From Brevibacterium pigmentatum (GTDB lineage: Bacteria; Actinomycetota; Actinomycetes; Actinomycetales; Brevibacteriaceae), in NCBI RefSeq assembly GCF_011617465.1, contig NZ_CP050153.1, forward strand, positions 3,596,001 through 3,660,000: a DNA stretch of 64,000 bases. The letters run 5' to 3'. Shown piece by piece: positions 59,339 through 60,923 of this stretch (positions within the stretch are counted from its first letter, which is position 1; every line of letters begins with the position of its first letter). Below the pieces are notes generated by a model. It saw only the letters and a list, made by a program, of their open reading frames with translations, was not told the origin of the DNA and did not search any database. The translations under genes were made by a program, and so were the position numbers.

Positions 59339-60268
59339 TTACGAGTTGCGCCCCTGTTCGAAGCCCGCGGCGAATCCGCGCTCGAAGGCCTCTTGGACCT
59401 CCTGTTCGCGGCTGCGACGCTCATCGGCCCAGCCGAAGGGGTCGAATCCTCGTCGGCCCGGTCCGAAGCCAGGACCGAAGTTCGGGCTGAACCCGCGGCG
59501 TCCGCGGCCTCCCCCGCGGCGGTCACGATCGCCATGCCCGTGCGCCTCGTGGCGGTCAGGGCCGCCTCGGTGATCGTCGTGATTATGGAAGCGTTTGTGA
59601 TCGTGCGGTCCGTCGTGGCGGTCTGAGTCGTCTCCGCAGCGGTCGGGGCCGAGGTTCTCGACGATCTTCGACAGGGAGGCTTTGAGGTTCTCGAACTCTT
59701 CGGAGGTGAGCACCTCTTCGATGTGGTCGCCGACTCCGTCGCGCATATCGCGGAAGCGCTGGCGCAGCTCTTCGGGATCGATGTTCTTCGACGGACCCCA
59801 ACCGCCCCGCCCGCGCGGCGGACCGTAGGTCACCGGCTCTTCGGGGTAAGCGGCACCGTCGGCGACCACTTCATCGGAGTCCCAGCGACGACGTCCGCGC
59901 CGCATGCGCCCGAAGTCGCGAGGGTCGAATCCGGAGTCCGCCGCGACCGAACGGAATTCGCGGCGCAGCACGTGGCTGAATTCGCGCAGCAGCTGCGGCA
60001 GATCGGCGTCGGTGTCATTGCTCTTGTCGTCGCCCGAACCGGCGTCGCCCACAGGTTCATCGCCTGCGGTCGCGGCATTGTCCGCGTCGACTGCGTCTGC
60101 CGCGCCGAGCTTGTCGCGACCGGCATCAGAGCGTGAGGCATCGCCCGTGGCGGTGTTCTCGTCTGAGTTCATAGAGTCCTCGCTGCCTTTTGCGCCGGCG
60201 CCTGCTGCGCCTGCGGTCGGGGTGGTGAAGTCGTCGTTGTCATCGTTGAAGGCTTTGTTATCGGTCAT
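59339..60268 (-). CDS. Unknown protein rich in Gly, Arg, His and Asp
   Basis: 309 residues. About 85 acidic, low-complexity residues start the protein, then a short conserved-looking helical piece (DLPQLLREFSHVLRREFRSV), a basic run (RMRRGRRRW), another helical piece (EELRQRFRDMRDGVGDHIEE) and a His/Asp/Gly/Arg-rich tail with repeats such as NFGPGFGPGRRGFDPFGW. The C-terminus ends in a helix (EQEVQEAFERGFAAGFEQ). It resembles no known enzyme; the His clusters could bind metal, which is inference. It is divergent from a MarR regulator with a shared operator region. Confidence 0.6.
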   Translation of the reverse strand: MTDNKAFNDDNDDFTTPTAGAAGAGAKGSEDSMNSDENTATGDASRSDAGRDKLGAADAVDADNAATAGDEPVGDAGSGDDKSNDTDADLPQLLREFSHVLRREFRSVAADSGFDPRDFGRMRRGRRRWDSDEVVADGAAYPEEPVTYGPPRGRGGWGPSKNIDPEELRQRFRDMRDGVGDHIEEVLTSEEFENLKASLSKIVENLGPDRCGDDSDRHDGPHDHKRFHNHDDHRGGPDRHEAHGHGDRDRRGGGRGRRGFSPNFGPGFGPGRRGFDPFGWADERRSREQEVQEAFERGFAAGFEQGRNS

Positions 60269-60292
60269 GTCATCTCCTTAGTTGTCATCTGA

Positions 60293-60332
60293 CATGTACA
60301 TGCAGAATGACATGCAATTCGATTGCATGTCA
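60293..60332. promoter_or_regulatory. Operator cluster between the MarR and Gly/His-rich genes
   Basis: TGACATGCAA (60308-60317), five bases, then TTGCATGTCA (60323-60332) form a perfect 10-bp palindrome. A second palindrome, CATGTACATG, lies at 60293-60302, and GCATGTA occurs at 60337. They fill the 85-bp gap between the divergent start codons (60268 and 60354), typical of a self-regulating MarR pair. Confidence 0.7.
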
Positions 60333-60353
60333 AGTAGCATGTAAAATCGAATC

Positions 60354-60923
60354 ATGAGCACGAACGATGACATTCAGGCGATCGCCGAGGCGCTCACCCG
60401 ACTGCAATGGCGGCGCGGGCCCGGCGGTCCGCGCGGATTCGGACCCTTCGGCGGGTTCGGTGAGCACGGTAGACCCGCCGAACGCGGGGGGTTCGGTGAG
60501 CGCGGAGGATTCGGAGGCGGTCGGCACTCAGACGACTTCCCCTTCGGCGGCAAGCGTCATCCCGGCGGACCGTTCGCCGCACACGGCCGCGGGCGTGCGC
60601 TCATCCGCCTGCTCGTCTCCCTCGTCCAGGCGGGCACGGCACTGGGAGTCAGCGCGCTCGGCGATGCAATCGGCGTCGATCAGCCGCGCGCGTCCCGACT
60701 CGTGTCCCAAGGTGTCGAGCTCGGCTTCCTGCGTCGCGAGGCCGACCCGGATGATGCCCGGCGGACCCTCATCGCGCTGACGGACAAGGGCCGCGCGATC
60801 ACCAACAGGTTCCGCGGCGCTCAGCGTGAGAACGTCGATCAGGCGCTGAGCGCATTCACCGAGGAGGAGCGCGCTCAGCTGGCCTCGCTGCTCACTCGTT
60901 TGGCGGATGCCTGGCCGAAATAA
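60354..60923 (+). CDS. MarR-family regulator with Gly/Phe-rich N-terminus
   Basis: 189 residues. Residues 20-75 are low complexity (GPGGPRGFGPFGGFGEHGR and further Gly/Phe/His/Arg repeats), a rare addition for MarR proteins. A winged-helix core follows: LIRLLVSLVQAGTALGVSAL, IGVDQPRASRLVSQGVELGF (recognition helix) and LRREADPDDARRTLIALTDK (the wing). It is divergent from the Gly/His-rich protein, and the palindromes between the two are probable autoregulatory sites. The ligand is unknown. Confidence 0.82.
   Translation: MSTNDDIQAIAEALTRLQWRRGPGGPRGFGPFGGFGEHGRPAERGGFGERGGFGGGRHSDDFPFGGKRHPGGPFAAHGRGRALIRLLVSLVQAGTALGVSALGDAIGVDQPRASRLVSQGVELGFLRREADPDDARRTLIALTDKGRAITNRFRGAQRENVDQALSAFTEEERAQLASLLTRLADAWPK

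Follow-up and report, generated by a model that had tools for sequence, protein, structure and literature searches.

Autoregulators of the MarR family that stand beside divergent promoters, such as Rv2887 and MexR, are the closest described relatives of the regulator analyzed here. MarR proteins dimerise through helices 1, 5 and 6. The window, that is, the whole stretch of 64,000 nucleotides under study (bases 3596001-3660000 of the single-contig, 3.91-Mb genome of Brevibacterium pigmentatum), contains a gene for one such regulator, A (60354-60923, plus strand; 189 aa, with the ATG at 60354 and the stop codon ending at 60923), and a divergent gene, B (59339-60268, minus strand; 309 aa). Like proteins of the Rv2887/MexR type, A combines the family's winged helix with its C-terminal helices and is separated by a palindromic operator from the gene that diverges from it; unlike them, it carries a low-complexity arm (38-98 aa across orthologues) inserted after helix 1, ahead of the winged helix, and what it apparently controls is a relative derived from MarR instead of a transporter or an enzyme. 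The MexR-ArmR pair offers a second, purely functional comparison. There, the partner is a short peptide-like antirepressor, ArmR; here, B could likewise relieve repression by a MarR protein but is itself a MarR-derived protein with a tail. By analogy only, the arrangement also resembles that of the eukaryotic Id proteins and bHLH factors, in which a paralogue lacks the DNA-binding part and keeps the dimerisation part; the folds of A and B are unrelated to those, and an interaction between A and B would be part of the analogy. Finally, the zinc-sensing regulators AdcR and ZitR share the MarR fold with A and suggest a metal as a possible ligand; unlike theirs, the histidines of A lie in a low-complexity arm, and A falls below the cut-off of the NCBIfam equivalog model for AdcR (18.5 bits vs 175). 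The components themselves belong to a known type, A being a MarR autoregulator. A description of the A/B pair was not found in the open-access literature searched, in line with the first-pass annotation, which knew no name for the unit; nor did that literature yield a partner whose DNA-binding domain has been lost repeatedly and whose low-complexity arm is matched by one in the regulator.

Matches to A at E < 1e-30 were obtained in 19 of the 37 Brevibacterium genomes searched. A scan of public genomes returned 80 loci with A, 21 of them from Brevibacterium and nearly all others from Microbacterium, the remainder consisting of a few Microbacteriaceae loci and one from an Actinomycetes metagenome-assembled genome (MAG). 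Outside the Brevibacteriaceae and Microbacteriaceae the matches were weaker (E 1e-19 to 1e-31). A divergent B was recovered beside A by script in 73 loci and by profile in four more, two of these four at contig ends. Both genes, the arms of their products and the 85-bp gap are found again in each of the 21 Brevibacterium loci retrieved and in almost every one of the approximately 55 Microbacterium (Microbacteriaceae) loci, bearing out the earlier suggestion of a two-gene unit and yielding the conserved pairs that the first-pass annotation had proposed to look for. One locus (L105) is truncated at a contig end. In a Microbacterium locus (L128, 3692-4333), an apparent antisense of the B tail precedes the A frame and the B core was not found, as if the repeats had led to a rearrangement or to an error in assembly. 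One locus from a MAG (L145) has an A gene with no detectable B; at this site (L145:3690-4495), A, complete with its arm, diverges from a gene for a CbiX-like chelatase (named by eye) with no B in between, and a similar gene adjoins the A/B pair of L107. Conserved neighbours that might hint at a function were sought, and none was common to Brevibacterium and Microbacterium loci. Since the flanking genes differ between the genera, A and B themselves are the conserved unit.

The product of gene A scores 29.5 bits against the Pfam model MarR_2 (cut-off 27) and 25.2 bits against the MarR model (cut-off 24.6), and 25 of 25 homologues scanned match both; on these matches, A is a MarR regulator. Its helix-1 segment, IAEALTRLQWRR (60372-60419, plus strand), so labelled by its position, is made of invariant or nearly invariant alignment columns and shows dN/dS values of 0-0.16. 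It is followed by the Gly/Phe/Arg(/His) arm (60420-60596, plus strand), placed by the Pfam boundaries. After the arm come the winged helix and the C-terminal helices (60597-60920, plus strand), with the near-invariant recognition segment IGVDQPRASRLV. The arm, present in every orthologue, is of Gly/Phe type in Brevibacterium and of Gly/His type in Microbacterium. Going by the predicted helix boundaries, it interrupts in all orthologues the continuity from helix 1 to helix 2 that is typical of the family.

B of the window, an acidic, Gly/His/Phe-rich protein, has no significant match to any Pfam or NCBIfam family, and its origin was revealed by its counterparts in Microbacterium. In these, as in that of genome G056, a winged-helix-like domain comes first and is followed by an FGPGFG/GH-rich tail like that of the window protein; most Microbacterium members also end in the motif A[YF]ERGFxAGFxRGR. 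Sequence searches with Microbacterium B reach generic winged-helix models only. However, one member (L090) yields an AlphaFold model that, with pLDDT mostly above 90 in the core, has the helix 1-2-3-4-strand-strand-5-6 topology of the MarR fold. Among solved structures, Foldseek returned MexR, Rv2887 and MarR as its best matches (E 2.5e-5), and the VIA matches were MarR proteins (Z 10-11.5, the best being 11.5 over 122 residues). Judging from the model, B of Microbacterium has the MarR fold in full. A profile built from its winged-helix-bearing members, with three short members left out, scores the cores of 22 of 22 Brevibacterium B proteins at 12.5-33.9 bits, compared with a maximum of 10.7 among 3885 shuffled or reversed control sequences. 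The window protein scores 24.3 bits, of which helices 5-6 contribute 16.9 and helix 1 contributes 5.7. Profile-profile comparison by hhalign aligns Brevibacterium with Microbacterium B at E 1e-15, an alignment that partly covers the low-complexity tail; the match between the A and B profiles is moderate (hhalign probability 84). The low-confidence model of window B (mean pLDDT 47.5) places helices at residues 90-112, 117-128, 165-186, 189-205 and 281-308, an order that fits helices 1, 2, 5 and 6 plus a terminal helix.

The resulting map of B, all on the minus strand, takes its helices 1-2 and 5-6 from the profile and from this low-confidence model. Putative helices 1-2 occupy residues 89-128 (59885-60004) and helices 5-6 residues 165-208 (59645-59776). 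Between them, a linker (residues 129-164; 59777-59884), in which the low-confidence model shows neither helix nor strand, replaces helices 3-4 and the wing; the wing motif is missing from the alignment. Then come the Gly/Arg/Asp/His/Phe-rich tail (59429-59644), with FGPGFGPG repeats and a single cysteine (residue 211), and a C-terminal helix (59342-59428), whose motif, AFERGFAAGFEQGR, is kept in both genera. The N-terminus that precedes helix 1 (60005-60268) is acidic, varies in length and changes faster than the remainder of B (dN/dS 0.28-0.58). On the profile evidence, the presumptive dimerisation helices 1, 5 and 6 of window B are homologous to those of a MarR-fold protein, and the winged-helix DNA-binding domain has been lost. 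Earlier, A and B had been said to belong to different folds. This does not hold: B is MarR-derived, retaining the full fold in Microbacterium, and the Brevibacterium protein has the dimerisation-type helices but no winged helix. The possibility that B is an unrelated Gly/His-rich protein was ruled out by the structure of Microbacterium B and by the profiles. Two Microbacterium lineages, represented by L108 and by L135 together with L137, likewise have a B that lacks the winged helix. Since L108 and the L135/L137 pair are placed separately on the tree of A, this distribution suggests at least three separate losses, the L108 case coming from a MAG. Because B keeps the winged helix in most Microbacterium, any DNA-free action of B would not be ancestral.

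The start codons of A and B are separated by 85 bp (60269-60353). The two palindromes and the half-site that had been noticed in this gap were found again, as parts of an array of five boxes that is conserved in 73 aligned gaps (consensus TTGTCA - CATGTAYATG - TGACATG-N11-CATGTCA - CATGTAAAAT). Box 1 is TTGTCA (60282-60287); box 2 is an imperfect palindrome, TGACATGTACATGCA, around CATGTAYATG (60290-60304); boxes 3-4 (60308-60332) form the perfect palindrome TGACATGCAATtcgATTGCATGTCA, with 11-bp arms in the window; and box 5 is the half-site CATGTAAAAT (60338-60347, plus strand). The array keeps a constant spacing to A in most loci, its core ending 21 bp from the start of A in 61 of the 73. 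In the window, box 5 contains a -10-like TAAAAT. As this element lies six bases before the ATG, the A mRNA is probably leaderless, with box 5 as its putative promoter. On the minus strand, AAGGAG (60274-60279) is the ribosome-binding site of B, and a TTGACA overlapping box 4 (60328-60333) may be its -35 element. Judged by a sigma-70 scan, such promoter elements are weak; the scan found no promoter in the gap and supported neither TAAAAT nor TTGACA.

The pattern TGACATGN{6,16}CATGTCA matches once in the window (0 matches in 100 shuffles) and once in the whole 3.9-Mb genome. The central palindrome is present in 19 of 19 A-positive and in none of 18 A-negative Brevibacterium genomes; among Microbacterium genomes it occurs in 31 of 59, never in more than one copy. 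The match in G072 sits apart from the A/B pair of that genome and is thus probably due to chance. A palindrome that is single-copy and tracks the presence of A suggests that the control exerted by A is probably limited to A itself and B. A wider regulon was considered and rejected, the exact operator pair occurring once per genome; when three mismatches are allowed, 58 sites appear, compared with 32 for the reversed control, and a few weaker sites are therefore possible. This reversed control, ACTGTACN{10,11}GTACAGT, is itself a palindrome that occurs once in this genome (recorded at L228, position G000:C1:638858-638881) and in many Brevibacterium genomes; it is perhaps the operator of another regulator.

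With B apparently the only dedicated target of A besides A itself, the output of the system must be B or A. This would fit a scheme in which B is an independent effector, an oligomeric scaffold or condensate former working through its tail and C-terminal helix and repressed by A with no contact between the two, and the retention of the terminal helix motif and of the Gly/Phe-rich tail in both genera points the same way. Yet A's own arm would be left unexplained, as would the retention of MarR helices 1, 5 and 6 after the loss of the winged helix, and we consider such a role quite unlikely.

The low-complexity repeats reported in both proteins by the first-pass annotation were readily seen (RGFGPFGGFGE.. 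in A, NFGPGFGPGRRGFDPFG in B). In a greedy choice of 47 open reading frames from the window, A and B rank first and second for the Gly+Phe+Arg+His fraction in any 60-residue stretch (0.72 and 0.68, the next being 0.55); A ranks first (6) and B joint second (3) for FG dipeptides. The repeats, which might have been missing from orthologues, are present: as well as the arm of A, the tail is kept in B. The GC-richness of the genome and the variable length of the arm would agree with two ordinary genes whose GC-rich repeats have drifted neutrally. However, the A arms hold one and the same place in both the Brevibacteriaceae and the Microbacteriaceae, and pairwise comparisons of the window genes with eight Brevibacterium relatives give dN/dS values of 0.04-0.27 for the A arm, 0.03-0.26 for the B tail and 0-0.17 for the B C-terminal helix. 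All three segments are under purifying selection, making neutral drift highly improbable.

Histidine and cysteine bear on a further alternative, in which the His-bearing arm of A would sense a transition metal that relieves repression, while the His/Cys tail of B would sequester the metal and the B helices would serve homodimerisation only. Microbacterium B tails mostly contain 6-28 histidines and usually one cysteine, A is devoid of cysteine in 73 of 73 proteins, and the His contents of arm and tail covary (rho 0.79, 74 pairs), all of which speak for such a metal switch; no covariance was seen for Phe. In phylogenetic contrasts the correlation falls to r 0.43 (permutation p < 0.0002) and its rank version is not significant (p 0.11), leaving the covariance suggestive only. 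Also against the switch, in the B. casei-like group (L081, L083, L084 and L089) the tail of B contains only 1-5 histidines, and this scarcity in some Brevibacterium argues against a store made of His alone; the AdcR model rejects A, as mentioned above; and no gene adjoining the pair is common to both genera. Overall, we regard this alternative as fairly unlikely. Exactly one cysteine is found in 56 of 74 B proteins, mostly in the tail and often beside a histidine (59636-59638 in the window); it is a possible metal or redox site.

Taken on the sequence evidence, the reading that we prefer, with a probability of about 0.45, is a closed, self-regulated two-gene circuit made of the repressor A and a MarR-derived partner, B, that perhaps acts in the manner of an Id protein. 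Dimers of A would bind the array of CATG-centred boxes and repress both leftward transcription of B and rightward transcription of A. Made upon derepression, B would pair with A or with itself via helices 1, 5 and 6, in the way that Id proteins pair with bHLH factors, thereby weakening or retuning the grip of A on the array; alternatively, only homodimers of B might use the helices that it has kept. The disordered arms (of Gly/Phe/Arg type, with His in varying number and, in B, usually a single Cys) may contribute contacts that are multivalent or respond to a ligand, for which a transition metal is the first candidate. In its fullest form, which is still a doubtful proposition, the circuit would have a wing-losing MarR paralogue heterodimerise with a divergent MarR repressor, while the matched disordered Gly/Phe/His arms, through metal binding or condensation, set the switch on a unique five-box operator.

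Many Brevibacterium and Microbacterium genomes carry the A/B unit, whose members match generic MarR models only, or none. If the Id-like circuit proves correct, a common repressor family would have given rise to a regulatory partner devoid of a DNA-binding domain, the losses being visible as separate events in several lineages, and the pair would provide a compact system in which to ask what low-complexity arms do within bacterial transcription factors.
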